This document shows, one piece after another, positions 36,020-55,017 of a stretch of 64,000 bases of DNA; the first letter of the stretch is position 1; each line of letters opens with the position of its first letter. The notes under the pieces are model-generated. The model was not told the origin of the DNA and did not search any database. It saw only the letters and a program-made list of their open reading frames with translations. The translations under genes and the position numbers were made by a program. Source of the stretch: Chlorogloea sp. CCALA 695 (GTDB lineage Bacteria; Cyanobacteriota; Cyanobacteriia; Cyanobacteriales; Chroococcidiopsidaceae); contig NZ_PVWN01000002.1 in assembly GCF_003003885.1 (NCBI RefSeq), forward strand, positions 1 through 64,000, in the 5' to 3' direction.

Positions 36020-37026
36020 ATGCGTCGGTTATTAGTAACTGGCGGAGCGGGATTTATTGGCGCGAATTTTGTCCGCTATTGGTGCAAAACTTACCCAGAC
36101 GATCGCCTTGTTGTCTTAGACGCGCTTACTTATGCTGGAAACAAGCAAAATTTGCACAGGTTAGAGAAAAATCCTAATTTTTCTTTTGTTCTGGGAAATA
36201 TAGGCGATCGCGCTCTTGTAGATAAACTACTAATATCAGAAAATATCGATACAATCATTCACTTGGCGGCAGAGTCTCACGTTGATCGCTCTATCCTTAA
36301 ACCTGCAACTTTTTTTCAAATAAACTTAGTAGGAACTTTTACCTTATTAGAGGCTTTTCGTCAATACTTAGAAACGGCAAAAGTTGTAAATAAACCTCTA
36401 TTTCTGCACGTTTAGTTTATGGTAGTTTGAGCCTTACCGAACCTGCTTTTACCGAGACTACGCCTTATGCTCCAAATAGTCCTTATTCTGCTTCTAAAGC
36501 TGGTAGCGACCACTTAGTAAGAGCCTATTTTCATACCTATGGATTGCCAACAATTGTTACTAATTGCTCTAATAATTACGGTGCGTTTCAATATCCCGAA
36601 AAGTTAATTCCTTTAATTTGTATCAATATTTTGCAAGGTAAAAGCTTGCCTATTTATGGAGATGGGCAAAATGTCCGCGATTGGCTTTATGTCGGCGATA
36701 ATTGTACAGCAATAGAAGCGGTAATTAATCGCGGTAAACCTGGCGAAACTTATAATATTGGCGGCAATAATGAAATTAAAAATATCGATTTAGTGAATAA
36801 AATATGTACATTAATGGATAAATTGGCGGCGCTACCGATAAATCCGAGCAATCAATTAATTACCTACGTTAAAGATCGACCGGGACACGATTTTAGGTAT
36901 GCAATTAATGCAAGTAAAATTAAACTTCAGCTAGGTTGGACACCAACAACAAGCATAGAAGACGGTTTGCGTCATACTGTGCAATGGTATCTCAATCATC
37001 GTCAATGGTGGGAATTACTGCTGTAA
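36020..37026 (+). pseudogene. rfbB: dTDP-glucose 4,6-dehydratase, inactivated by a 10-bp deletion at the active site
   Basis: The frame runs from MRRLLVTGGAGFIGANFVRY to NKPLFLHV and then stops (36415). The next frame resumes with [20 protein letters not shown] and goes to the normal end ([14 protein letters not shown]). RfbB has HVSTDEVYG at this place; here HV is followed by TA and then VYG, so 10 bases including the Ser-Thr-Asp-Glu codons are gone. The Thr-Asp-Glu are the catalytic residues of the family. Adding 10 bases gives 338 residues, a normal length. The gene is therefore both frameshifted and catalytically dead. Confidence 0.9.
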
Positions 37027-38049: not shown

Positions 38050-38862
38050 CTACGTTTTCTGTTTAAAACCTTGTCTAAATACCCACTGCATCAAACCAGG
38101 AAACAAGCTGTAAGCGGCGGTTGACAACTTAGCCGAGCCTACCAAAACTTCAGCACGCTGATTTTTAACTCCGTCCCAAATTGCTTTGGCTACATCCTCT
38201 GGTTTCTCTACTACCGGAGTGCTTAACACTTGGTTGAGTTGATTTCGCCGCGCTGCAATATCTTGTTCGTCTTTTCCGCGAAAAATTGCCCGTTCCATTA
38301 AGCTACTTTTAATTACACTGGGATAAACACCGCAGACATGAATACCTTTAGGTTTTAATTCTGAGTGCATCGCCTCTGTTAAACCCGTAAGCGCGAATTT
38401 GCTAGTAGAGTAAGGAACTAGATAAGGAATAGGCACTTTACCGCCAATCGAAATTACATTTACTATTGTGCCGCTACCTTTGGCAATCATTGCAGGCAAT
38501 AAAGCATGAATTGTATGAATATATCCCCACAAATTTGTATCTATAGTTTGATGCCAATCTTCCAAAGAGAAATCTTCCACAGTTCCCGAACTATAAATAC
38601 CTGCATTATTAATTAGCACATCAATACTGCCATATTCTGCCAAGGCTTTATTGACTAAATTAGCTACTTGCTGAGGATCTTTGACATCACAGTGAATACT
38701 TAAAACTTTCTTCCCTAAAGCTTGTAATTCTTGCGCTGTAACAGTTAAAGGCTCTACTCGGCGGGATGCTAGTACCAGATTGTAACCGTTTTGAGCAAAT
38801 AAAAGTGCGGTTGCTTTGCCTATGCCTTGGGAAGCACCAGTAATTAAAACTGTAGGAACCAT
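38050..38862 (-). CDS. Short-chain dehydrogenase/reductase
   Basis: 270 residues. TVLITGASQGIGKATALLF (NADP-binding), LINNAGIYSSG, IVNVISIGGKVPIPYLVPYS with Ser, and YSTSKFALTG (Tyr-x-x-x-Lys) complete the classical SDR set. The C-terminal end WVFRQGFKQKT is basic. Substrate unknown. It is the first intact gene after the decayed region at 36-38 kb. Confidence 0.93.
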   Translation of the reverse strand: MVPTVLITGASQGIGKATALLFAQNGYNLVLASRRVEPLTVTAQELQALGKKVLSIHCDVKDPQQVANLVNKALAEYGSIDVLINNAGIYSSGTVEDFSLEDWHQTIDTNLWGYIHTIHALLPAMIAKGSGTIVNVISIGGKVPIPYLVPYSTSKFALTGLTEAMHSELKPKGIHVCGVYPSVIKSSLMERAIFRGKDEQDIAARRNQLNQVLSTPVVEKPEDVAKAIWDGVKNQRAEVLVGSAKLSTAAYSLFPGLMQWVFRQGFKQKT

Positions 38863-39281: not shown

Positions 39282-40004
39282 ATGGTAAGTAGTAAAAATT
39301 TGTATGGTGGGCTTATCGTAGCTTTTGCCATTATTGGGATATGGGCATCAAGCTGGTGTTTATTAATGTCTGTTGATGTATCGGAAGTTAATAATTTATT
39401 GCTTTCACCACTAATAGTTTTACAAACGTTCCTTTATACAGGCTTATTTATTACTGCTCATGATGCCATGCACGGAGCCGTATTTCCGAGTAATCTCAAA
39501 ATAAATAACTTTATTGGTGCTTTAGCAGTGGGTTTGTATGCGCTTTTTTCCTATGAAAAGTTGCAGAAAAAACATTGGCTTCATCATCACAATCCAGCCA
39601 GCGAATTAGATCCAGATTTTCACAATAGCAAGCATAAAAACTTTTTTGCTTGGTACTTTAATTTTATGCTGCGTTATTGGAGTTGGACGCGGTTATTATC
39701 ATTAATGGCTTTATATAATGTCATTCTTTTTACTTTCCATATTCCTGAAAAAAACTTAACTTTGTTTTGGGTAATTCCTTCAATTTTAAGCTCAGTGCAA
39801 CTATTTTATTTTGGTACATTCACACCCCATAAAGAGCCAAGTGGAGGGTATAAAAATATTCATTGCGCTCAAACAAATCCTCTCCCAACTTGGTTATCGT
39901 TTATTACTTGCTATCACTTTGGTTATCATTACGAACACCACGAACATCCTGATGTTCCTTGGTGGGGATTGCCTAAAGTTTTTCAAATGCAACGCGAAAT
40001 TTAG
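39282..40004 (+). CDS. crtW: Beta-carotene ketolase CrtW
   Basis: 240 residues. The histidine clusters of the di-iron enzyme are all present: ITAHDAMHG, KKHWLHHHNPASELDPDFHN, and YHFGYHYEHHEHPDVPWWGL. FGTFTPHKEPSGGY and HCAQTNPLPTWLSF are also CrtW features. It oxidises the 4-position of beta-ionone rings to give echinenone or canthaxanthin, carotenoids used for photoprotection (also as the OCP pigment). The neighbours are not carotenoid genes, so it stands alone. Confidence 0.95.
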   Translation: MVSSKNLYGGLIVAFAIIGIWASSWCLLMSVDVSEVNNLLLSPLIVLQTFLYTGLFITAHDAMHGAVFPSNLKINNFIGALAVGLYALFSYEKLQKKHWLHHHNPASELDPDFHNSKHKNFFAWYFNFMLRYWSWTRLLSLMALYNVILFTFHIPEKNLTLFWVIPSILSSVQLFYFGTFTPHKEPSGGYKNIHCAQTNPLPTWLSFITCYHFGYHYEHHEHPDVPWWGLPKVFQMQREI

Positions 40005-40483: not shown

Positions 40484-40719
40484 TTACTTTCCTGCTTGCA
40501 ATCGCATGACTAATTCATTAAAAGGCTGCCAATTGTCTTCGGTAGTTATAGATTCCCCTATTGCTTCTGTAACCAGTATTAGCAGTGCTACTTTAAGATT
40601 ACTTTTTTGCATTTGTTGGAATACTTTTTCAGTATTGCTAATAGGTAAATTTACTAAAATTTCTCGATATGATTTTTGCCACTTTTCTAAAAGCTCTGCT
40701 GGAAATTTCTCAGTGCATT
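40484..40719 (-). pseudogene. Relic copy of the selO 3' end
   Basis: Read leftwards, the frame gives FPAELLEKWQKSYREILVNL...[18 protein letters not shown] then a stop at 40484. It aligns with the last ~73 residues of SelO at 41586-42989 ([10 protein letters not shown]...[18 protein letters not shown]); about 47 of 73 residues agree by eye. No start or upstream part remains. The HAD phosphatase gene lies between the relic and the full gene. Confidence 0.88.
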
Positions 40720-41585: not shown

Positions 41586-42989
41586 CTACTCTCCTGCTTG
41601 CAATCGCTTGACTAATTCATTAAAAGGTTGCCAATTGTCTTCGTTAGCTATAGATTCCCATACTGATTCTATAACAGGTCGAAGTAACGCTGTTTTAGGA
41701 TTACTTTGCTGTAATTGTTGAGATACTTTTTCTATATCACCAATAGGTAAATTTGACAAGCTTTGTTGATACAAGCTTTGCCATTTTGATAAAAGTTCTG
41801 CTGGAAGTTCCCCAAAGTTAAATATTAATGCTTGCTCTCTCCAGCTAGGGGTAAACCTTTCTCGCAACTGAGTAAAAAAGTCATGATAACCAATCTGAGT
41901 ATCTTTTAGCAGTTGAATTGTTACTTCTAGTAGCTCATCGGATTGGGGAAAGTTTGGACTTGTAAACCCTAACTTTTTCAGCATCAAATGTTTGTATTCC
42001 AACTTATAATATTCGTAAAATTTTGCTAATCCTTCCGCCATAGCATCAATGTCAATAACGGCGGCTAAAGGCTGCTGTAACGCTTCTAGATTTGTGCAAC
42101 AAACGTCTGGTTGATTGCCGTAACTATAGCGCCTGTAATGGTCAAAATAAGCGGCTGTAAATTCCAAATCGTAGCTAGGAATAAAAGCATAGGGGCCATA
42201 ATCAAAACTTTCGCCCGTAATTGACATATTATCGGTATTTAGTACGCCATGACAAAAGCCTGCTGCCATCCATTGCGCGGCTAATTTGGCAACTCTGGCG
42301 ACTAATTGGGCGTAAAAAAGTACGTATTGGTCGGGTTTATTGTGAATATCTGGATAATAATATTCAATTACATGGTCTAATAGCTTTTGAGTTAGGTCGG
42401 GACGATTGAGATTATGAAGTCGCTCGAATGTACCAAAACGGATATGAGAATTGCTAAATCGTACCATTACTGACGATCGCGTTGGTGACGGCTCATCTCC
42501 CCGCCAGAGTTGTTCGCCCGTTTCTACTAAACTAAAGGTGCGAGAAGTCCGTACCCCCGTTTGATGCAGTAATTCTGTAGCTAATACTTCCCGTACACCG
42601 CCTTTGAGCGTAAGTCTACCATCACCGCCGCGAGAATAAGGTGTTTTACCCGATCCTTTAGTACCAAAGTCGTACAATTCCCCATCTGTACCCCGTACTT
42701 GTCCAAAAAGGAAACCTCTCCCATCGCCCAAATCGGGGTTGTAGTAACCAAATTGATAGCCGTGATAACGTAATGCTAGTAAAGGCTGACGTTGAAACTT
42801 GCCAAAAGCTTCAATAAAATCATTATTTGTGACATTTTGCGGCTCTAATCCTAAAAGCGGTAATACCGAATCGTTGCGAAAACGTAAGATTTGTTCGGGA
42901 AATTGCGCCGCTTGAACTATATCGTAGTATTCATCGCCCAAGGATGCTATCGCGGATTCGTAATTGAGACTGAGTAAGGGATTGGTCAT
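41586..42989 (-). CDS. selO: Protein adenylyltransferase SelO (YdiU/UPF0061)
   Basis: 467 residues. [40 protein letters not shown], and [25 protein letters not shown] (the catalytic-loop-like block) are the SelO motifs. SelO is a pseudokinase that AMPylates proteins in redox responses. No selenocysteine or C-terminal CxxU is present; the C-terminus is RLQAGE. It is only six bases downstream of the PKS stop in the same direction, so it may share a transcript. Confidence 0.95.
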
Positions 42990-42995
42990 GGTAGT

Positions 42996-45900
42996 TTATT
43001 TGAGCAAGTTTTCTAATTCGTCTAAAAGCAAAGCTTCGGCTTCGGCTTCTGTAAGCTGCTGCATTTGGGCTACAGTAGAATCGATGTCTGCATTACTCTC
43101 TTTTAGATCAAAACTAGAGTTTTGGAGTAATTTTTCAGTTAAATAATCGGTAAGTTTGGCGACGGTGGGATAATCAAAAGCTAAGGTAGAGGGTAAAGTA
43201 CAGCCTAAACTACTTTGCAATTGGTTTCGTAGCTCTACAGAAGTCAGGGAATCTATACCCAAATCGGCAAATCCTTGATGTGCGTCTAGAGAATGAGGGG
43301 AATTTAATCCTAAAATTTTAGCAACAAGCGATCGCACATATTCAATTATTAGCTCGTGACGTGTAGTTTTATTTGCATTCTCTAATTGTCTTAAAAAACT
43401 CTGTGGAGGGACATCCTCACATTTTTGCTGCATCAATGGTGTTGTGGGTGGAAGGGCTAATTGGCTATAAAACGGATTTTTTTGCCACCACTGCGCCCAA
43501 TCTATAGGTACTACCCCGACTTGACTAAACTCTGAAGAAAATAGCAATTGCTCTAAAGCTTCTAGTCCTTGCTGGGGGTTAATTGTTCCCATTCCTTTGC
43601 TTTGCAACTGCTGCTCCAATTCGGGCTTGGCAGCTAGTCCTAATCCGCTCCAAGCCCCCCAATTAATGCTTAAGGTTGGGCTTCCTGCTTGATTGCGAGT
43701 ATGCGCTAAGGCATCTAAAAAGCTATTGGCGGCGGCATAATTTGCTTGTCCCGCCGAGCCGAGGAGAGACGCTACTGAAGAAAACATGATAAAAAAGTCT
43801 AGGGGACAATTGCGAGTTAAACTGTGTAAATTCCAAGCGCCTTGGACTTTGGGCGCAAGCACTTTCTCGAACCTTTCCCAGGTTTGCTGTTGTAAAATAC
43901 CATCATCTAATATTCCCGCCGCGTGGATAATGCCACGTAAGGGCGGTAAAGATTCTATATCTGTCAGCACTTGAGCAAGTTGGGATGTCTTCGCAACATC
44001 GGCTTGGGCAAAAACTAGGTTAATATCGGCAAATTGGGCTTTTAACTGCTCTATTACTTCGGTTGTTGGCTGGTTGCGCCCCACTAATACTAAATGCTTT
44101 GCGCCTTTGTTTGCTAACAACTTGGCGACAAGCAAACCCAAATCACCTAATCCACCAGTAATTAAATAGGTTGCATCGCTACGGATAGAGGGAGTAGGAG
44201 TATTTTTGTGATGATGTGCGATCGCAATTTTACCAATATGTTTGGCTTGCTGCATATAACGAAAAGCATCAATCACTTGCTCTACGGGAAATATTTTACA
44301 AGGGAGAGGTTTAAGCTTACCTGCTGTAAACTGCATCGTTATTTGGCGCAGCATGGCGGCGATTAAATCGGGCTGTTGTTGGGTTACTTGCAATAAATCA
44401 AAGATAAAATAAGCAGCATTCGGCTTTATTCGCTCTACTTGGGTTGCTTCCCAAATTCCCAATTTCCCAATCTCTACAAACCGCCCGTTATCTGCCAAAA
44501 CTGAGAGACTTTTGGGGATAAATTCACCTGTAAGGCAATTAAGGACAATATCTACACCTAACCCATGAGTAATTTCTGTAATTTCATCAGCGAAATCTAG
44601 CGTCCGGGAGTTCATAATATGTTTTACTCCTATAGAGCGCAAAAAGTAACCTTTGCTAGGAGATGCGGTAGCAAAAATTTCTGCTCCCATTGCTTGGGCT
44701 AAATGCACCGCCGCCAGCCCCACACCGCCTGTTGCTGCGTGAATTAAGACTTTTTCTCCGGGCTGAATTTTGGCTAAATGATGCAAGCCATAATACGCGG
44801 TTAAAAATGCTCCAGGGATAGTTGCAGCTTCGGCAAAACTTAGCGATGCGGGGATAGATACAACTAAATGTGCGTCAACGGTAACATATTGACTAAAACT
44901 ACCAGACATCATTGCTAAAATGCGATCGCCTATTTGAAAATTATCTACACCTTCTCCAATTGCAACTATATTTCCCGCACACTCTAACCCCAAAGCCCCC
45001 GCTTCCGGATACAAACCTAAAGCGTTTAACACATCTCGAAAATTTAGCCCCGTAGCTTGCACTTGAATTTCTACTTGACCAAAGCTAGGCACAGAGCGAG
45101 TTACACTCTGCCATTGCAAATTATCCAAGCTTCCCCGGTGGGTAATAACCAGTTGATTGGAAGTAAGAGAAACTTCTTTTAATTGGGGGCTAAAACTGCT
45201 CCTAACTAACCTTGCAACAGTCCGATTACCAGCTTTAAAAGCAATTTGAGCTTCATTTTGAGGATGCCAAATTTCTGCAAATAACTCGCTTACTTCATTT
45301 TGCGGCGCAGTTTCATCTAAATCTATGTGGGTACAATTTAACTCTGGATGCTCTAAAGTAATTACTTTACTCATTCCCCCTAAGCAAGAATTGGCAATTC
45401 CCGATGCTGAATTTGCGCCTCTAGTTACTAATATTAAACGCAGAGATTGAGAGCATTTAGCGGTTAATGCTTGGACTAAATGCAATGTACTACTACATCC
45501 CAGGTTTGTCGCTGCTTCTAAGTCAGCAATTGTTAGCTCATTATAGATACTATCTAAACTCCATAAATGAATTACATTGCTTAATTTATGCTTCTTTTCG
45601 CCTAAATCTTCTAGTAACTGCTGAGAATGATTTGAATTAGTGGGGTTTATTTGAAAATGCTGGGAATTACGCTTGTATTCTTTACCAGGGAATACTAAAA
45701 TATATTCTTGGTTTTGTGCTGTTAATAGTGTCGCCAACTCTTGCCCTAAGCCGCTATTATCTGCAAAAATTAGCCAGGTGCGATCGCATTTTTCACAAGT
45801 ATCTATTTTTTGACGCTCTTGAATTTGCCATTCCACTGTATATAACCAATCTTGCCACGATTCAGTTTTCTTAAGTAGCGCTTTACGGCTGGCTTGTTTG

Positions 45901-48900
45901 GAAACTAAACCATTGATTTCAACTACCAAGTTGCCAACTTCATCGTATAAGTAGACATCGGCGATAATTTCTTGTAAGTCATGATTGGGGCGGAGTTTGA
46001 CATAACTCCATACATTTTTACCTGGATGACTATAAACGCGCAGACTTGCAAAACCTCCAGGTAAATAAGTCTTTCCTTCTGGAAGTGTGGCAAATATTAC
46101 CTGAAAACAAGCATCTAGCAAAACTGGGTGAATTTGATAAGTTGCTAATTCTTCTTCTAGACAAATCAAACCTAAAGCGGCTTCGGCTTTTTTCCATAGC
46201 TGTTTAATTGCTCTAAAGGTTAACCCGTAAGCAATCCCGCGCTCTTGACATTGCAAATAGTGAGTTTCTACAGCTATTTCGCTAGTAAATTTACTCCGTA
46301 ACTCGGCGATATTTACCTGTTTGGGTATATCTTGAGTAACTACAATTTTTCCTGAAGTGTGCAGCGTCCAATTTTCGGTATCGGTTTTATCGAGACTGTA
46401 GATTGCAAAGGAGTAATCCGCCGCTTCTTTGCTGAGGATTAATTGTACGAGTTGGGGTTTAGCGGCTAGAATTAACGCGCGTTGGATGTCTACTTTTTCT
46501 AATCTAACTTGATTTTTCAATACCTGTGAAGCTGCGGCTAAAGCCATTTCTATATAAGCCGCGCCAGGTAAAACAACTTGCTCGTATACGCAATGATCTT
46601 TTAAAAATGCAGGTGTATCTAGAGTTAGTACCGATTGAAAGACAATATCTTTAAGCGCCGATGGTAGTTTTTGCCCTAGTAAAGGATGGGTAAATGTAGA
46701 GACGTTAATGGTAGATGTAAATACGTTGTTTGTAGATGTAGAGACGTTGCACCGCAACGTCTCTACGGTATTTTGGTTTTTTAAAGGTGATTCAATCCAA
46801 TGGCGTTGTTTTTGAAAAGGATAAGTAGGTAATCCAACTTTACAACGGGGGTAATCGCTGTCAAAACTAACCCAGTCAACCGTTACACCTTGCTCGTACA
46901 ATAAAGCCAAACTAGACAGAATTTGTCGCCAATTGGCGGAGGGGCGCAAACTAGGAAGCCAAACCCCTTCATCTACAAGCAGTCGCCCCATACCTAGTAA
47001 TATTGGTTTAGCTCCGCACTCTACAAATACATTAAAACCCGCCTGTTGTAACGTTTTCATTCCGGCGGCAAATTGTACGGGCTTGAGGATGTGGTTGCAC
47101 CAATATTCAGGAGTTGCGATCGCCTCATTAACGATTTCCCCTGTAATATTAGAAACGATCGCTATACTTGGCAAGTTATAAGTTATTTCTCTAGCAACCT
47201 GTTCAAATTCCTCTAATATCGGCTGCATTAGCGGCGAGTGGAAGGGGCGGGAAACATTTAAAAACCTTGTTTCGATTCCCTGAGTTGTAAACCTAGCAAC
47301 AACGCTTTGTAACGCTTCTGGACTACCAGAGATAACAATATTTTCTATGCCGTTAATGGCTGAAATCGCAATGTCTTCATAATCGGCAATAGCAGCTTGT
47401 ACTTTTGCTATATCTGCCCTTACTACAACCATTCCCCCCGGTGCTAATGTCTGCATTAGTCTTCCCCGCGCCGCAATTAGCTTTAAACCATCTTCTAGGC
47501 TAAATACTCCCGCAATAACGGCAGCGACATACTCCCCTATACTATGGCCCATAACAATCTCTGGATGTACCCCCCAAGATTGCCACAATTTATATAAAGC
47601 GTATTCCAACGCAAAGATTGCACTTTGGCTATAGTTGGTTTCGTTAATAGATGTATCTTCAGTTAAAGGATAAAGAATTTCTAGTAAAGGCTTTTCTAAA
47701 TACAAACGTAAAATGCGATCGCATTCATCTATATTTGCGCGAAAAACTGGTTGATCGTATAACTCCTGACCCATCCCCACATACTGCGATCCTTGCCCAG
47801 TAAACAAAAATGCTATGCGTGGCTTACTAATAACCTTTGTTTTGGCGCTGTCGAGTTGCGCTGTTAAATCATTAATAGAATCAGCAACAATAGCGATACG
47901 ATGTTGAAAATGCGATCGCCCAGTATTAGCTGTAAAACAGATATCTGCTAGATTTTCCTCCAGGTGCGATGTCAAAAACACTTGATAGCGTTTGATTAAT
48001 GCTTGCAAAGCGCTAGGATTTTTAGCTGAAAGGGTAAGTAAATGTATTGGGCGATCGCTCTTTAAACTATATGTTGTAGTTTGGACGTTTTCTGTCAAAA
48101 TTACATGGGCATTTGTCCCTCCAACACCCAAAGAATTAACACCCGCAAAACGGGGAGAAGCTTCCCAATCTTGCAGACTGGTATTGACGTAAAAAGGACT
48201 ATTGGCAAAATCAATTTGCGGTGATGGAGTCTGAAAGTGCAAGCTAGGAGGGATTTTTTGATGATGGAGTGTCAAAACAGTTTTAATAAAACCTGCAACA
48301 CCTGAAGCTATTTGCAGATGTCCAACATTAGTTTTTACAGATCCAATCGCACAGAAGCCTTTGTTTTGCGTATTTTCCCGAAACGCTTGGGTTAAGCCGC
48401 CAACCTCGATCGGATCGCCCAGTACCGTCCCTGTACCGTGCATTTCTACATAGCCGATACTCTGTGCTTTTACTCCCGCTTGCGCCATTGCTTGAGAGGC
48501 AACTTTTGCTTGTCCATCGCCATTAGGTGCTAAATAACCAACCTTTGCACTACCATCATTATTAATCGCTGTACCTTTAATTACGGCATAAATTCGGTCG
48601 GAATCTGCGATCGCATTCTGCAATTTTTTCAATACAACAATTCCCACCCCATTACCAAAAATCGTACCTTTTGCTTTAGCGTCAAAAGCCCGACAATGCC
48701 CGTCAGGAGATACAATTGTCCCTTCTTGATACAAATAACCACTTCTTTGGGGTACAGCTACCGAAACTCCCCCGGCTAAACTCATATCGCACTCGCCATT
48801 TAGCAAACTTTGGCAAGCCATGTGTATCGCTACTAAAGAAGTTGAACAAGCCGTTTGGACATTGACGCTGGGTCCAGTAAGATTTAATTTATAAGAAACT

Positions 48901-51653
48901 CGTGTAGTCAAATAATCTTTATCGTTAGCCACCATCATTTGAAAGCCACCCATAGAATCGAGAGTGACAGCTTGCAAATTGTCTTGAGAATCTAAATTAT
49001 GGCGAGAGGGATAAACGTTATTTAGCAAGTAAGTATTCATCACCGCACCCGCATAGATGCCAATTGCACCTTTGTAAGTTAAAGGATTGCAACCAGAGTC
49101 TTCCAAGCTTTCCCAGGCGCATTCTAGCAAAAGCCGTTGTTGAGGATCGATTAATTGTGCTTCTTTGGGACTATAACCAAAAAACTCAGCATCAAATAAT
49201 TCAATGTCTGCGATCGCAGGTTTGGCTTTGACGTAGTTAGGATTGTTTAATAGCATCGGATCTACCCCTGAAGCTAAAACTTCCTCATCGCTAAAAAACG
49301 AAATTGATTCCACCCCATCACATAAATTTTGCCAAAATTCATCAACGTTATTAGCGCCCGGAAAACGGCAAGCCATACCGATTACAGCAATATCACAGGT
49401 GTCTGTCGTAATTCTTTTGGCGATCGCATTTTTTACAGTTTGATTGCTCAAATAACCCGCCATCGCCTTTACAGTGGCATATTTGAACATATCTGCTACA
49501 GTTAGTTGCTTGCCAAATTGCGTTTGTAATTTATGCTGAACTTGGAGCAATAGTAAAGAATTTCCCCCTAATTCAAAGAAATTACTCTCACTTCCCACCG
49601 TAAAACCCAGCACTTGCTGCCATATTTGGGCAATTTGAGTTTCGTTGTCCGTCATTGAAGTTTTAACTATTTTTCGAGTCAAAAGCTCTAAACGCCCAAT
49701 AATACTATCAAATTCTCCCAATTCAAAAAGCTTGCTCAATTGTTGGCGTTGAATTTTGCCTATAGCGGTTTTGGGGATAATGTCTTTAGCAACAGGGATT
49801 AAATAACTCGGATTTATGCCGATTTGAGTTAAAACTGTTTGGCGAATTAGTCGTAGTAACTCTAGTAATTCCTCACCTTCTAAGCCGCAACTAAAAAATA
49901 TTGCTAACTTTTCCGTTGTATCAACTTGAACAGCACAGGCGGCGGTATAGGTACTTTCTACCCCGGTAACGGTTTCAACTACTTGCTCGATTTCATGGCT
50001 GTAGTAGTTAGCACCATTAATAATAATAGTTTCTTTAATGCGTCCAGCGATCGCCAATCCCCCATTACTAATAAATCCCAAATCCCCCGTATTAAACCAC
50101 CCATCGCTAAAAGCTTCGACGTTGGCTTGAGGATAGTTGTAATAACCAGGAAAAACAACATCGCCCTTTACTTGCAAGCAACCAATCGCATTTTCTGGCA
50201 ATACTACCCCTGTACTATCTACAATGCGAATGGCTACCCCAGGAATCGGCGCGCCTAAATCTGCAAAGGTGCGACTTTTTATCTCCTCAAAACTGCTACT
50301 ATCTAGCTGATGAAAATTTAAAGGTGCTGTCTCTGTAGGTTGATAATAAGTAACACCCGATCCTAATTCTGCCATCCCAAAAGCCGGACGAATAGCAGTT
50401 TTTTTCAATCCATATCTAGCCAACTTTTCTAAACAAGCTTGCACAGATTGACTTGAGATTGCTTCCCCGGCGGTTAATAAAAACTTGACGCAAGATAAAT
50501 CCCAACTTCTGGCTACATCATTTTGCAGCGCATCTTTAACTAAAGTATAAGCAAAACTAGGCGACCAGCTATGAGTAATGCGGTGTTTAGCGATTAAATC
50601 CAGCCAATTGAGTACCTGACCCAAAACCTCATCTTTTTGAGCGTAGACGACCTTACAGCCCACTTCCAAACAACGAATGTGCCAGTCTGAAATGCTGCCA
50701 ATATGGTCAAAGGGCAACCAATTGAGGATTTTATCATCAGACTGATGTTGATTAAAAAGGTTTGTCCCGCGCGCACGAGTAATTAAATTGCGATGGGTCA
50801 ATTGAATACATTTAGGAATGCCCGTACTGCCAGAAGTTAGACTTATAAAAGCAACATCATCGGGTAAAGCCTTGTAATAGCTAGTATCTGACTCATTATT
50901 GCTCAACTCAGACACATCAACGTAACTTTTTTGAAATGATGAGCTTACTAATTTTTCGCTAGTAATAATTAGCGGTTTTGCCAAAAACTCCCAAATATGA
51001 CGTAGCTTATCTAACGCTGGATGAGCATCGCTATAGGTTGGCGGTACTTCCATAATTACCGGAATAAACCCACCCAACACGCAACCCCAAAAAGCTGGGA
51101 GAATGTCGCAATTATTTTTTAAAAGCAATATTACTTTGTCGCCAGCAAGCAGTTTTAGTTGTCTCAAGCCAAACAAACATTTCTCAGCTTGCGTAAGTAA
51201 TTGGGCGTAAGATTGGCTAATTTCTTGACCATTTTCTAGATAAAGAATCTCTCCGCTAGTTTGGGCGGCTGTTTGCAGTAATTCTATTAAGGTAGTAGGT
51301 GTCGCTACAAATGGTAAAGCGCCACCATCGCTAAATGCCAATTTTACCTGGGGATAACTCTTTTGGGGAACACTTTTTAACGCTTTTTCGTCTATTTCCC
51401 CGATAGAATTGCGTGGTAGCTCTGACACCAACACATAAGTGGGCAATATTGAATCGGGAATAACGCCTTGCAAGTAAGATTGGAGTTGATTTAATAAGGG
51501 AGGTTGGCTAGAAACGACGTAAACGACTAACTCTGCTAAAGAGGAGCTTTTTGTTTTGTTGACAAATACGGCACAGTCATCAATTAAGAGATTTTGTAAT
51601 AAGATAGATGCTATCTTTCCCTTAATTTGTTGTAAATACTCCCGTCCACTCAT
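42996..51653 (-). CDS. Acyl-ligase/type I polyketide synthase (AL-ACP-KS-AT-DH-ER-KR-ACP)
   Basis: 2885 residues. Residues 1-110 resemble the C-terminal subdomain of an adenylating enzyme (ILPTYVLVSELPRNSIGEID). About 125-630 is an AMP-ligase (SLTSGSTGIPK, FPGYYNYPQ, FNTGDLGF); about 655-740 a carrier domain (FELGGNSLLL). KS follows with VQTACSTSLVA (near 934), then AT (GHSIGEYVAA, near 1370), DH (near 1690), a structural KR half, ER (HAATGGVGLAAVHLAQ, near 2310), KR (LITGGLGDLGLL, near 2500; HAAGILDDG, B-type) and a last ACP (LGIDSLTSVE, near 2800). No thioesterase. It should load an acid, extend it and fully reduce it. Product unknown. Confidence 0.92.
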   Translation of the reverse strand: MSGREYLQQIKGKIASILLQNLLIDDCAVFVNKTKSSSLAELVVYVVSSQPPLLNQLQSYLQGVIPDSILPTYVLVSELPRNSIGEIDEKALKSVPQKSYPQVKLAFSDGGALPFVATPTTLIELLQTAAQTSGEILYLENGQEISQSYAQLLTQAEKCLFGLRQLKLLAGDKVILLLKNNCDILPAFWGCVLGGFIPVIMEVPPTYSDAHPALDKLRHIWEFLAKPLIITSEKLVSSSFQKSYVDVSELSNNESDTSYYKALPDDVAFISLTSGSTGIPKCIQLTHRNLITRARGTNLFNQHQSDDKILNWLPFDHIGSISDWHIRCLEVGCKVVYAQKDEVLGQVLNWLDLIAKHRITHSWSPSFAYTLVKDALQNDVARSWDLSCVKFLLTAGEAISSQSVQACLEKLARYGLKKTAIRPAFGMAELGSGVTYYQPTETAPLNFHQLDSSSFEEIKSRTFADLGAPIPGVAIRIVDSTGVVLPENAIGCLQVKGDVVFPGYYNYPQANVEAFSDGWFNTGDLGFISNGGLAIAGRIKETIIINGANYYSHEIEQVVETVTGVESTYTAACAVQVDTTEKLAIFFSCGLEGEELLELLRLIRQTVLTQIGINPSYLIPVAKDIIPKTAIGKIQRQQLSKLFELGEFDSIIGRLELLTRKIVKTSMTDNETQIAQIWQQVLGFTVGSESNFFELGGNSLLLLQVQHKLQTQFGKQLTVADMFKYATVKAMAGYLSNQTVKNAIAKRITTDTCDIAVIGMACRFPGANNVDEFWQNLCDGVESISFFSDEEVLASGVDPMLLNNPNYVKAKPAIADIELFDAEFFGYSPKEAQLIDPQQRLLLECAWESLEDSGCNPLTYKGAIGIYAGAVMNTYLLNNVYPSRHNLDSQDNLQAVTLDSMGGFQMMVANDKDYLTTRVSYKLNLTGPSVNVQTACSTSLVAIHMACQSLLNGECDMSLAGGVSVAVPQRSGYLYQEGTIVSPDGHCRAFDAKAKGTIFGNGVGIVVLKKLQNAIADSDRIYAVIKGTAINNDGSAKVGYLAPNGDGQAKVASQAMAQAGVKAQSIGYVEMHGTGTVLGDPIEVGGLTQAFRENTQNKGFCAIGSVKTNVGHLQIASGVAGFIKTVLTLHHQKIPPSLHFQTPSPQIDFANSPFYVNTSLQDWEASPRFAGVNSLGVGGTNAHVILTENVQTTTYSLKSDRPIHLLTLSAKNPSALQALIKRYQVFLTSHLEENLADICFTANTGRSHFQHRIAIVADSINDLTAQLDSAKTKVISKPRIAFLFTGQGSQYVGMGQELYDQPVFRANIDECDRILRLYLEKPLLEILYPLTEDTSINETNYSQSAIFALEYALYKLWQSWGVHPEIVMGHSIGEYVAAVIAGVFSLEDGLKLIAARGRLMQTLAPGGMVVVRADIAKVQAAIADYEDIAISAINGIENIVISGSPEALQSVVARFTTQGIETRFLNVSRPFHSPLMQPILEEFEQVAREITYNLPSIAIVSNITGEIVNEAIATPEYWCNHILKPVQFAAGMKTLQQAGFNVFVECGAKPILLGMGRLLVDEGVWLPSLRPSANWRQILSSLALLYEQGVTVDWVSFDSDYPRCKVGLPTYPFQKQRHWIESPLKNQNTVETLRCNVSTSTNNVFTSTINVSTFTHPLLGQKLPSALKDIVFQSVLTLDTPAFLKDHCVYEQVVLPGAAYIEMALAAASQVLKNQVRLEKVDIQRALILAAKPQLVQLILSKEAADYSFAIYSLDKTDTENWTLHTSGKIVVTQDIPKQVNIAELRSKFTSEIAVETHYLQCQERGIAYGLTFRAIKQLWKKAEAALGLICLEEELATYQIHPVLLDACFQVIFATLPEGKTYLPGGFASLRVYSHPGKNVWSYVKLRPNHDLQEIIADVYLYDEVGNLVVEINGLVSKQASRKALLKKTESWQDWLYTVEWQIQERQKIDTCEKCDRTWLIFADNSGLGQELATLLTAQNQEYILVFPGKEYKRNSQHFQINPTNSNHSQQLLEDLGEKKHKLSNVIHLWSLDSIYNELTIADLEAATNLGCSSTLHLVQALTAKCSQSLRLILVTRGANSASGIANSCLGGMSKVITLEHPELNCTHIDLDETAPQNEVSELFAEIWHPQNEAQIAFKAGNRTVARLVRSSFSPQLKEVSLTSNQLVITHRGSLDNLQWQSVTRSVPSFGQVEIQVQATGLNFRDVLNALGLYPEAGALGLECAGNIVAIGEGVDNFQIGDRILAMMSGSFSQYVTVDAHLVVSIPASLSFAEAATIPGAFLTAYYGLHHLAKIQPGEKVLIHAATGGVGLAAVHLAQAMGAEIFATASPSKGYFLRSIGVKHIMNSRTLDFADEITEITHGLGVDIVLNCLTGEFIPKSLSVLADNGRFVEIGKLGIWEATQVERIKPNAAYFIFDLLQVTQQQPDLIAAMLRQITMQFTAGKLKPLPCKIFPVEQVIDAFRYMQQAKHIGKIAIAHHHKNTPTPSIRSDATYLITGGLGDLGLLVAKLLANKGAKHLVLVGRNQPTTEVIEQLKAQFADINLVFAQADVAKTSQLAQVLTDIESLPPLRGIIHAAGILDDGILQQQTWERFEKVLAPKVQGAWNLHSLTRNCPLDFFIMFSSVASLLGSAGQANYAAANSFLDALAHTRNQAGSPTLSINWGAWSGLGLAAKPELEQQLQSKGMGTINPQQGLEALEQLLFSSEFSQVGVVPIDWAQWWQKNPFYSQLALPPTTPLMQQKCEDVPPQSFLRQLENANKTTRHELIIEYVRSLVAKILGLNSPHSLDAHQGFADLGIDSLTSVELRNQLQSSLGCTLPSTLAFDYPTVAKLTDYLTEKLLQNSSFDLKESNADIDSTVAQMQQLTEAEAEALLLDELENLLK
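46690..46766. repeat. Palindromic repeat translated inside the PKS AT-DH linker
   Basis: Between 46738 and 46766, GTAGAGACGTTGC and GCAACGTCTCTAC form a 13-bp hairpin with an ACC loop. Two degenerate half-copies (GTAGAGACGTT and GTAAATACGTT) lie just to the left. In the PKS frame this codes the linker VETLRCNVSTSTNNV and TSTINVSTFTHP. The core AGACGTTGC equals that in the palindrome at 5845-5869. Confidence 0.8.
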
Positions 51654-52010
51654 GACTTACGCTCTAGTTTCAAATACACTACTCAAATCTGCACTGAATA
51701 TATTAGCTGAATTTCTCAATTTATTTGTATCTACAATCTCAATTAATCCTATTCCCTAAAAATTAATTTTAGTTTAAACCAAAGCGGTACTTTTCTGCGT
51801 TTTAAAATTGGCTCACTTTGGTAAACTTCAACTTAACATTTATATAAAAAATTGATATGCGATCGCACATTGTCTTTACAAAAATCAGAGTTTAGTAATT
51901 ATATAGCAAAGAATACAAGCGACATATAACAAGGATTAATCTTACTTGTATTATGTATACTACTTTTAAAAAGCTCAATGTTTTTTACTATAAAAAATCA
52001 AACATATATT
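51654..52010. other. 357-bp spacer upstream of the PKS
   Basis: AT-rich. It must contain the leftward PKS promoter and the rightward promoter of the epimerase-like gene. One HIP1 octamer lies near 51861. No ribosome site is obvious before the PKS ATG. A short open frame through the first part overlaps the PKS start and looks like chance. Confidence 0.4.
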
Positions 52011-52814
52011 ATGAGTAAAGCAATTATTGGCTACACTGGGTTTATTGGGAGTAATTTAATTCGTCAAGCAAAGTATGATGATTTTTATAACTCCCAAAAC
52101 ATCGAATCTGTTGCCGGAAAAAGTTTCGATTTATTAGCTTGTACGGCGGCTCCAGCCGAAAAATGGTTAGCAAATAAAGAGCCAGTAAAAGATAAAGAAA
52201 ATTTACAGAAATTAATCAAAAACTTACAGCAAGTATCAGCAAAAAAAGTAATTTTAATCTCTACTATTGATGTATATAATCAACCTGTTGAAGTAGATGA
52301 AGATACAAGCATAAATGCAGAAATTTTACATCCTTACGGCAAACATCGATTAGAGCTAGAAACTATGATTCAAAATCAGTTTGATGCTTTAGTTGTGCGC
52401 TTACCTGGTTTGTTTGGTAAGGGAATGAAAAAAAATATAATTTATGATTTTCTCCACAACAATTTATTAGAAAAAATCAACAAGGGTAGTGTGTTTCAGT
52501 TTTATAACTTAGACCATTTATGGCAAGATATTCAAGTAGCCATCAAAAACGATTTAAAAGTAGTTAACTTTGCTACTGAGCCTACCAGTGTCGCCGAAGT
52601 AGCTATTACAGCTTTTGATTTTGAGTTTACAAACCAAACACAAAACGCAGTTAAGTACGATATCCGCACCAAATATTACCAACTTTTTGATGGTATTCAG
52701 CCGGGATACTTATATAACAAAAGTCAAGTGTTATTAGAACTAAAAGAATTTGTAACTGATTTCAAAAACAGTAATTCTGCTATTTCTCAACTTGTCCTAC
52801 CCGACGAATATTGA
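52011..52814 (+). CDS. NAD(P)-binding epimerase/dehydratase-like protein
   Basis: 267 residues. SKAIIGYTGFIGSNLIRQ is a GxxGxxG nucleotide loop; VILISTIDVYNQPVEV has the 'ST.dvY' strand and HPYGKHRLELETM holds a Tyr-x-x-x-Lys-like set (YGKHRLE) as in extended SDRs. The tail differs from known subfamilies. Substrate unknown. ATG 52011 is preferred to 51978. The 3' end overlaps the rel gene by 35 bp, tail to tail. Confidence 0.8.
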   Translation: MSKAIIGYTGFIGSNLIRQAKYDDFYNSQNIESVAGKSFDLLACTAAPAEKWLANKEPVKDKENLQKLIKNLQQVSAKKVILISTIDVYNQPVEVDEDTSINAEILHPYGKHRLELETMIQNQFDALVVRLPGLFGKGMKKNIIYDFLHNNLLEKINKGSVFQFYNLDHLWQDIQVAIKNDLKVVNFATEPTSVAEVAITAFDFEFTNQTQNAVKYDIRTKYYQLFDGIQPGYLYNKSQVLLELKEFVTDFKNSNSAISQLVLPDEY

Positions 52815-55017
52815 GAATATCGCTCATTTTTTTGATTTGGACAAATACTTTTTCTAATTGAACCCGATCGCGTATTTCCAAACCCAAGTCAATAATAGCA
52901 GGTTCCCCATTTGTCGTTTTAACGTTGGCATTTCGCACGTTGATACTATAGTCGCTCAGGCGAGATAAAATATCTTTGAGTACACCTACGCGGTCAATAG
53001 CTTCTATTTGCACGTCAATAGGATAAGTTTGGGGACGACCTTTATTCGAGTCTACAGGATTCCAGCTTACCGGAACTAAGCGATCGCCTTCAACATTTTC
53101 GACATTTTGACAACCTTGGCGGTGAATAGAAATCCCTCGATTGCTGCGCGTCACCACACCAATAATTACCTCTCCAGGAATTGCATTGCAACAACCCGCC
53201 AAATGATATAACAAACCTTCAACCCCAGCAATCGGCGATTCGCTGGCTTTTTTGGTAGGTAAAGGAGTCCGGGTTGCAGTAGTTGGTATAATAACTTCTG
53301 TCGTATCAATAGTTTGCTGGGTTTTAAACACTTCTCGCCAGCGATTGAGTACCAAGTTTAAAGTTACTTCCCCGTAACCCACCGCCGCCAACAAGTCCTC
53401 TACACTGTGATAATTGCATTTGAGGGCAACTTGTACCATTGGCTCAGATTTTAGCAAAGATTCAAAGCCAGTTTTACCTATTGCTTTTTCTAACATATCT
53501 CGACCACGAGAAATATTTTCGTCACGGTGCGATCGCTTGTACCATTGTCTAATCCGATTTTTTGCCGCCGATGTCCGGGCAAAATTTAACCAATCTAAGC
53601 TGGGGTGGCTGTTTTTCTGGGTAAGAATTTCGACAATATCGCCATTTTTCAACCGCGTATCTAGCGTTACCATCCGTCCATTTACCCGCGCACCACTACA
53701 ACGATTGCCAACTTCTGTATGAATCCGGTAAGCAAAATCTACCGTAGTCGCACCGGGACTAAGGGGAATTACATCGCCTTTGGGAGTAAATACATAAACA
53801 TCATCTTCAAATAAATTATCTTTAACGCTTTCTAAATACTCCTGGGGATCTTTAACGTCTTTAAGGTCGTGTTGCCATTCTAATAGCTGTCGTAACCAGG
53901 TCAACTTTTCGTCTCCTGGAGCCATTTGCGTATGACTGCTACCTTTTTCTTTATACTTCCAGTGGGCGGCAATTCCATACTCAGCGATGTGGTGCATTTC
54001 TATCGTGCGAATTTGCACTTCTACGGGTCTGCCTGTGAAGCCTACAACCGCCGTATGCAATGATTGATAGCGATTTGGTTTGGGCAAGCCAATATAGTCT
54101 TTAAACCGCCCTGGAATCGGCTTAAATTCATCGTGAGCTATGGCTAAAGCCCGATAACATTCTTCGTTCGTTTGTACCACAATCCGAATTGCCGCCAAGT
54201 CGTAAATTTCGCTAAATTCCTTCTGTTGGCGCTGCATTTTTTGATAAATGCCGTAAAGATGCTTAGGACGACCGCTAACATCGCTGTAATTAATCCCTGC
54301 TTGGTCTAGCCTTGCTTTTAATATCTCTGTAACTCTAGTGAGTCTATCTTCTCTATCGCCGCGCTTTTCCGCCACCAATTCTTGCATCTGACGATAAGCA
54401 TCGGCTTCTAGGTATTTAAAAGCTAAATCTTCTAATTCCCACTTAAAGCGCCCGATCCCCAGTCTATGAGCAAGGGGGGCAAAAATATCGCGGGTTTCTT
54501 GAGCAATGCGGCGGCGCTTTTCATCAGCTAAGTGTTCTAAAGTCCGCATATTGTGCAAGCGATCGGCAAGCTTGACTACAATTACTCGTATATCTTTTGC
54601 CATCGCCAAAAACATTCGGCGAAAATTCTCGGCTTGACTTTCGGTTTTACTAGAAAAATTAAACTTAGATAACTTAGTAACCCCTTCTACCAATTGGCGC
54701 ACTTCGGGATTAAACAACTGTTCTAATTGTTCAATTGTAATATCAGTATCTTCAACCACATCATGAAGAAAACCCGCCGCAATCATCGCGCTACCGCCAC
54801 CTAAATCGCGCAACAAACCCGCCACCGCTACCGGATGACAGATATAAGGTTCGCCAGATTTGCGATACTGTCCTTCATGGAGTTTATAGGCAAAATCAAA
54901 AGCGCGACAGATAATTGCCGCATCGCTAGAATCATTATCTGACGATGCAATTAAACACTTTTGTAACCATTCAGGAATAACACAATCAAAGGAAGCGGTA
55001 GGCGCAACGGCATTCAT
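52780..55017 (-). CDS. Bifunctional (p)ppGpp synthetase/hydrolase (Rel/SpoT)
   Basis: 745 residues. The HD hydrolase region has AAGFLHDVVEDTDITIEQL. The synthetase part includes LYGIYQKMQRQ and PIPGRFKDYIGLPKPNRYQS, where RFKD is the variant found in bifunctional enzymes. A TGS domain follows (DVYVFTPKGDVIPLSPGAT), then a C-terminal ACT domain (IEAIDRVGVLKDILSRLSDY). It makes and degrades the stringent-response alarmone. Full length. As the only copy here it is probably the main cyanobacterial Rel. Confidence 0.96.
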   Translation of the reverse strand: MNAVAPTASFDCVIPEWLQKCLIASSDNDSSDAAIICRAFDFAYKLHEGQYRKSGEPYICHPVAVAGLLRDLGGGSAMIAAGFLHDVVEDTDITIEQLEQLFNPEVRQLVEGVTKLSKFNFSSKTESQAENFRRMFLAMAKDIRVIVVKLADRLHNMRTLEHLADEKRRRIAQETRDIFAPLAHRLGIGRFKWELEDLAFKYLEADAYRQMQELVAEKRGDREDRLTRVTEILKARLDQAGINYSDVSGRPKHLYGIYQKMQRQQKEFSEIYDLAAIRIVVQTNEECYRALAIAHDEFKPIPGRFKDYIGLPKPNRYQSLHTAVVGFTGRPVEVQIRTIEMHHIAEYGIAAHWKYKEKGSSHTQMAPGDEKLTWLRQLLEWQHDLKDVKDPQEYLESVKDNLFEDDVYVFTPKGDVIPLSPGATTVDFAYRIHTEVGNRCSGARVNGRMVTLDTRLKNGDIVEILTQKNSHPSLDWLNFARTSAAKNRIRQWYKRSHRDENISRGRDMLEKAIGKTGFESLLKSEPMVQVALKCNYHSVEDLLAAVGYGEVTLNLVLNRWREVFKTQQTIDTTEVIIPTTATRTPLPTKKASESPIAGVEGLLYHLAGCCNAIPGEVIIGVVTRSNRGISIHRQGCQNVENVEGDRLVPVSWNPVDSNKGRPQTYPIDVQIEAIDRVGVLKDILSRLSDYSINVRNANVKTTNGEPAIIDLGLEIRDRVQLEKVFVQIKKMSDILNIRRVGQVEK

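Follow-up and report, generated by a model that had tools for sequence, protein, structure and literature searches.

Sphinganines made by a polyketide synthase (PKS) were reported in 2025 from Pseudomonas fluorescens MYb115, where the PKS SgaA and the alpha-oxoamine synthase (AOS) SgaB form them from L-serine (PMC12134224). AOS domains within PKS/NRPS proteins were already known (PMC3870968). Serine palmitoyltransferase (SPT) was not found in Nostoc punctiforme, and cyanobacterial sphingolipid genes have been described as unknown (PMC8895605).

Here we analyzed a PKS gene in a 64-kb stretch of DNA from Chlorogloea sp. CCALA 695, the whole of which is called the window below, together with a PKS-AOS gene on contig C57 of the same genome. 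The two share with SgaAB a type I PKS that would feed an acyl chain to an SPT-like AOS for release on an amino acid, and the catalytic residues of the AOS are likewise conserved. SgaAB is described as a single iterative PKS (SgaA) with a separate SgaB, whereas here two PKS proteins come from separate loci, the first with its own domain for acid activation and loading and the second with the AOS fused to it. SgaAB lipids carry phosphoglycerol, whereas the cluster described here contains glycosyltransferase (GT) genes. We regard the pair as a split, modular cyanobacterial variant of the PKS-made sphinganine route. No report of the two-protein cyanobacterial PKS/PKS-AOS form was found in a literature search conducted mostly outside subscription papers.

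At the loading end, sequence comparison places the window PKS nearest to McyG-type rather than Ols-type architectures. The loading PKSs of the McyG/NdaC type (microcystin, nodularin) have the same type of adenylating domain and the same A-PCP-KS order; in contrast, the McyG module is without DH and ER, whereas full reduction is predicted here, and the window line would end in an AOS, not in an NRPS. Outside the eight genomes that carry the pair, the nearest such relative is a McyG-like protein of genome G138, matching the AL-ACP-KS part at 56%. G138 has a PKS-NRPS cluster (L168-L169) that we take, from its architecture, to be McyG/McyE/McyD-like. Olefin synthases (Ols) also join AL-ACP-KS-AT...KR-ACP in one cyanobacterial protein, but the window PKS has DH and ER with active-site motifs, is without ST and TE, carries an AL that is not FAAL-like and would hand its chain over in trans; on these domains membership in the olefin synthases was rejected. 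The first-pass annotation had pointed to the missing ST-TE and the extra DH and ER, and Pfam and motif searches agree. Mycocerosic acid synthase (MAS) and Pks2 share the KS-AT-DH-ER-KR-ACP order (9d2z is the best full-length PDB match) but have no loading domain; both are methylmalonyl-specific and iterative. The NCBIfam Pks2 model NF041183 scored 1081 bits on the window PKS against a cut-off of 2400. Finally, the AL domain has its closest PDB counterpart in the keto-acid-selecting A domain of StsA, but the window loading module is without a KR.

Domain architecture of the window PKS

The PKS gene is an intact open reading frame of 8.66 kb on the minus strand, in a genome of 168 contigs that is 99.99% complete. 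Both its relatives and its petB/petD genes are as expected of a cyanobacterium. A 95%-identical orthologue occurs in a second genome of the genus (G005), which shows that the gene is maintained. The public record of the contig with this orthologue (L027) is titled 'Tatlockia sp.', evidently a mislabelled MAG that belongs to this cyanobacterial genus. A single 2885-residue AL-ACP-KS-AT-DH-ER-KR-ACP protein had been described in the first-pass annotation; Pfam and motif checks found the same, and the interpretation attached to it held in part. The minus strand was absent from that description, as were three features added here: an A-sub-like N-terminus, a docking-like C-terminal tail and an AL domain that is unlike FAALs. 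The gene and its parts are as follows.

42996..51653, minus strand: loading/extending PKS, (A-sub)-AL-ACP-KS-AT-DH-psiKR-ER-KR-ACP-tail, 2885 aa (open reading frame, translation, Pfam, motifs, orthologue alignment)
51372..51617, minus strand: N-terminal detached NRPS A-sub-like domain, residues ~13-94 (phmmer LgrA, weak PF13193, alignment)
49725..51284, minus strand: acid-adenylating domain (AL), residues 124-643 (Pfam AMP-binding 130-505, PDB comparison)
49428..49652, minus strand: loading ACP, residues 668-742, ELGGNSLLLLQ (Pfam PP-binding, motif)
48093..49394, minus strand: ketosynthase (KS), residues 754-1187 (Pfam KS 754-1140; Cys/His/His intact)
46995..47810, minus strand: acyltransferase (AT), residues 1282-1553, GHSIGE and RPFHS (Pfam, motif)
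45876..46688, minus strand: dehydratase (DH), residues 1656-1926 (Pfam, His/Asp motif)
45291..45773, minus strand: structural, non-catalytic KR subdomain, residues 1961-2121 (PF21394)
44220..45152, minus strand: enoyl reductase (ER), residues 2168-2478 (Pfam about 2192-2478, NCBIfam, nucleotide-binding motif)
43647..44174, minus strand: ketoreductase (KR), residues 2494-2669, LDD motif (Pfam, motif)
43140..43343, minus strand: C-terminal ACP, residues 2771-2838 (Pfam, motif)
42999..43061, minus strand: C-terminal docking-like tail QQLTEAEAEALLLDELENLLK (orthologue alignment)

All catalytic motifs that were checked are present, namely the A-motifs of AL, Cys-His-His of KS, the Ser of AT, His/Asp of DH, the nucleotide-binding motifs of ER and KR, Ser/Tyr of KR and the serines of both ACPs. 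The AT appears to be malonyl-type, judged by its xFHS motif alone. Pfam searches found no TE, ST or reductase release domain within the 2885 aa. An AlphaFold model of residues 1-745, built with 8 sequences, had a mean pLDDT of 56 and was set aside.

Loading domain and possible starter

The AL domain matched the StsA keto-acid A domain best among PDB entries (6ulw, E 8e-127) and the McyG A-PCP structure at E 2.6e-119 (4r0m), while the best FAAL in the PDB reached E 2.7e-48. A classical FAAL identity was rejected on this difference (1e-119 to 1e-127 versus 2.7e-48). Since the domain is nearer to McyG and StsA than to FAALs, a long fatty acid should not be assumed as the starter, although a non-FAAL AL domain may also activate fatty acids. 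The preference of McyG is for phenylpropanoids (PMC2885083). The A-sub-like domain that precedes AL matched LgrA in phmmer (E 1.3e-9) and PF13193 weakly. Among the orthologues it occurs only in G005; it is also present in G105, in a keto-acid-like loader that carries a KR.

In three relatives (G100, G062 and G146), an isopropylmalate/homocitrate-synthase-like gene lies divergent to the orthologous PKS (L159:1969-3174, L160:16461 onward and L162:16148 onward), and a fused LeuD-LeuC-like (aconitase-like) gene is found near it in G062 and G083 (L160:5500-7254 and L165). These neighbours hint that the starter could derive from keto-acid elongation. Such genes are absent from the 64-kb window and from the other stretches of its own genome that were examined.

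The partner PKS-AOS

Of the other KS genes in this genome, one encodes a fully reducing PKS. It lies from about position 116350 of C57 onward, and its 2493-aa product has the order KS-AT-DH-ER-KR-ACP-AOS without a loading domain. The terminal domain is a PLP-dependent AOS whose best PDB matches are serine palmitoyltransferases (E 1.6e-70); in NCBIfam it falls into the BioF/SPT superfamily and passes no equivalog cut-off. The PLP-binding Lys and the His, Asp and Arg residues are conserved in all seven aligned PKS-AOS proteins. A lipid-type GT4 gene starts about 15 bp past the PKS-AOS, and an Sfp-like phosphopantetheinyl transferase gene was located at C57:54747. The earlier observation that no thioesterase, phosphopantetheinyl transferase or second module adjoins the PKS is thus correct within the window but not genome-wide, as the latter two are on C57.

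Stand-alone AOS genes (450-580 aa) that share about 60% identity with the AOS domain of C57 were also seen in L109-L137 (e.g. in G010, G090, G110 and G138). They often lie beside FAALs and an SDR; in three cases a GT4 is there too, with 57-61% identity to that of C57. These loci are other candidate sphingolipid-type clusters in cyanobacteria.

Linkage of the window PKS and the PKS-AOS

In one genome (G067), the orthologous PKS and PKS-AOS genes are consecutive on the same strand, 7 bp apart, in a cluster that also has GT4, two GT2, FAD oxidoreductase, membrane protein and epimerase-like genes. Across a single sample of 149 genomes, both genes occur in the same eight (G000, G005, G067, G062, G083, G100, G132 and G146) and neither occurs alone, where an orthologue was defined as at least 60% identity over ~785 aa of AL-ACP-KS and the partner as a fused PKS-AOS. 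The probability of this co-occurrence by chance is 2e-13 if genomes are naively treated as independent and 1.8e-4 by family. The eight genomes represent three families; two other f19 genomes have neither gene. The assemblies of G001, G003 and G005 are incomplete.

The two genes have also been lost together. The window PKS lies between two flanking genes:

41586..42989, minus strand: SelO, flank (comparison with sister genomes)
52780..55017, minus strand: RelA/SpoT, flank (control tree)

In G003 and G004, SelO and RelA/SpoT are neighbours, and of the PKS no more than scraps of its 3'-end are left between them. Because such scraps remain in sister genomes, the 'empty' sites are deletions, and a recent horizontal insertion at SelO/RelA was rejected. 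In G001 the PKS is cut to residues 723-745, 2475-2546 and 2782-2885 and the epimerase gene is in pieces; at the C57 site of this genome, what is left of GT4, its final 60 residues, comes directly after the membrane protein, and everything between is gone. G004, a four-contig genome, combines PKS C-terminal scraps at SelO/RelA with a single leftover GT2 at petD-ExoD. The losses in G001 and G004 were separate, since G004 is a much more distant relative of G000 than G001 is, and both G000 and G005 keep the genes.

Trees of the window PKS and the PKS-AOS have identical topology with high support. Both group G083 with G062 and G146 and leave G132 outside, in contrast to the tree of RelA/SpoT, the flanking housekeeping gene that served as control. 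Pairwise identities of the two proteins are correlated at r=0.985, and the partial r is 0.974 when RelA is controlled for. The tail QQLTEAEAEALLLDELENLLK, a motif picked after inspection, is conserved in 7/7 full-length orthologues and absent from the seven PKS-AOS partners.

Taken on this evidence, the window PKS likely loads the starter and carries out the first extension in a modular line of two proteins that ends in the PKS-AOS and yields a sphingoid-base-like product. The term 'stand-alone' given to it earlier is true only locally, in view of the adjacency in G067, the co-occurrence, the co-loss and the shared phylogeny. Against a split line, the genes sit at separate loci or contigs in six of the seven genomes with both at full length, this one included, and the PKS-AOS lacks an N-terminal docking domain to receive the tail.

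The strict co-occurrence and co-loss also bear on an unlikely alternative, in which the window PKS would act by itself as an iterative MAS-like elongase and an acyltransferase working in trans would move the long chain to a glycolipid or wax. The best full-length PDB match of its KS-to-ACP part is indeed the iterative, fully reducing mycocerosic acid synthase, and the release domain is absent; the malonyl-type AT motif and the absence of an acyltransferase nearby speak against it, as does the tie to the PKS-AOS. We give very little credence to a start of another line, either the C132 NRPS/PKS cluster or the KS-AT protein of C39. C132 does encode a PKS/NRPS line and the C39 protein begins with a coiled segment, presumably a typical N-terminal docking region, but C132 has its own AL-ACP loading domains at its start, and relatives of the proteins of C132 or C39 persist in G004 or G002, both without the window PKS gene. 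That the locus is silent or decaying, a 'stand-alone' relic in a genus that is losing the PKS, would fit the sister genomes, in which deletion occurred independently at least twice, but is similarly improbable: here and in the 95%-identical G005 orthologue the frame is open, the motifs are intact and the partner gene is there too.

Neighbouring genes and the glycosyltransferase cassette

A third neighbour of the PKS in the window connects it to the C57 locus:

51978..52814, plus strand: NAD-dependent epimerase/dehydratase-like gene, divergent to the PKS (homology to a G067 cluster gene and to cassettes)

Its product is 49% identical to the homologue in the G067 PKS cluster. Homologues also belong to a conserved FAD-GT2-GT2-epimerase cassette in seven genomes that lack the PKS pair, mostly accompanied by genes for a TIM-barrel and a membrane protein, so that the epimerase-like gene was rejected as a specific PKS marker. 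In this genome the cassette is split, with the epimerase-like gene in the window and FAD, GT2 and GT2 flanking the PKS-AOS on C57, which ties the two loci independently of the PKS genes. No GT/FAD cassette was seen beside the PKS genes of the five f19 genomes, a point against the split-line reading.

No 3-ketosphinganine reductase was identified in the cluster, which counts against a sphingoid-type product. The SDR gene of the window (38050-38862) was considered for this role and found unsupported, as it is generic and is retained in G001, where the PKS is lost. Several further observations were made in this region. A CrtW-type beta-carotene ketolase-like gene of the fatty-acid-desaturase fold lies near the PKS (39282-40004, plus strand) and is present in G001 too. 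Just downstream of SelO, part of its C-terminus is repeated as a detached copy (40490-40708, minus strand) with 64% identity to residues 394-466. A dTDP-glucose 4,6-dehydratase-like gene (36020-37026, plus strand) is in two frames here and in one 338-aa frame in G001, reflecting either a broken gene or an assembly error.

Proposed pathway

From the architecture, the intact active sites and the linkage, all read from sequence, we infer a course of acid loading, extension, transfer in trans and AOS release. The AL domain would adenylate a carboxylic (or keto) acid and load it onto the first ACP, after which the window KS would add one malonyl unit that is fully reduced. The acyl chain on the second ACP would then pass in trans to the PKS-AOS, possibly by way of the conserved tail, and be extended there by another reduced C2 unit. 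The modules could possibly iterate within this scheme, which would lengthen the chain. Release by the SPT-like PLP domain through decarboxylative condensation with an amino acid would give a sphingoid-base-like alpha-amino ketone, which the linked glycosyltransferases would probably then decorate.

The first-pass suggestion that the PKS prolongs and reduces an acid and hands it to another enzyme agrees with this scheme, and the putative receiver can now be named as the C57 PKS-AOS. Of the two products offered there as examples, the linked GT genes point toward a glycolipid; a wax is unlikely, since the AOS terminus of the receiver implies decarboxylative condensation with an amino acid.

Implications for cyanobacterial sphingolipids

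Two ceramides have reportedly been found in cyanobacteria, and we know of no sphingolipid gene reported from them. Tentatively, and with somewhat less than even confidence, the split PKS line may make a sphingoid-base-like lipid whose starter is not a long fatty acid, with a fused SPT-like release domain, as the first cyanobacterial genetic route of this kind. The analysis also illustrates how joint loss, shared phylogeny and a single genome that keeps the split genes together can place a PKS that seems to be an orphan. The PKS pair with its SPT-like AOS end is a named, testable candidate for a cyanobacterial sphingolipid pathway.
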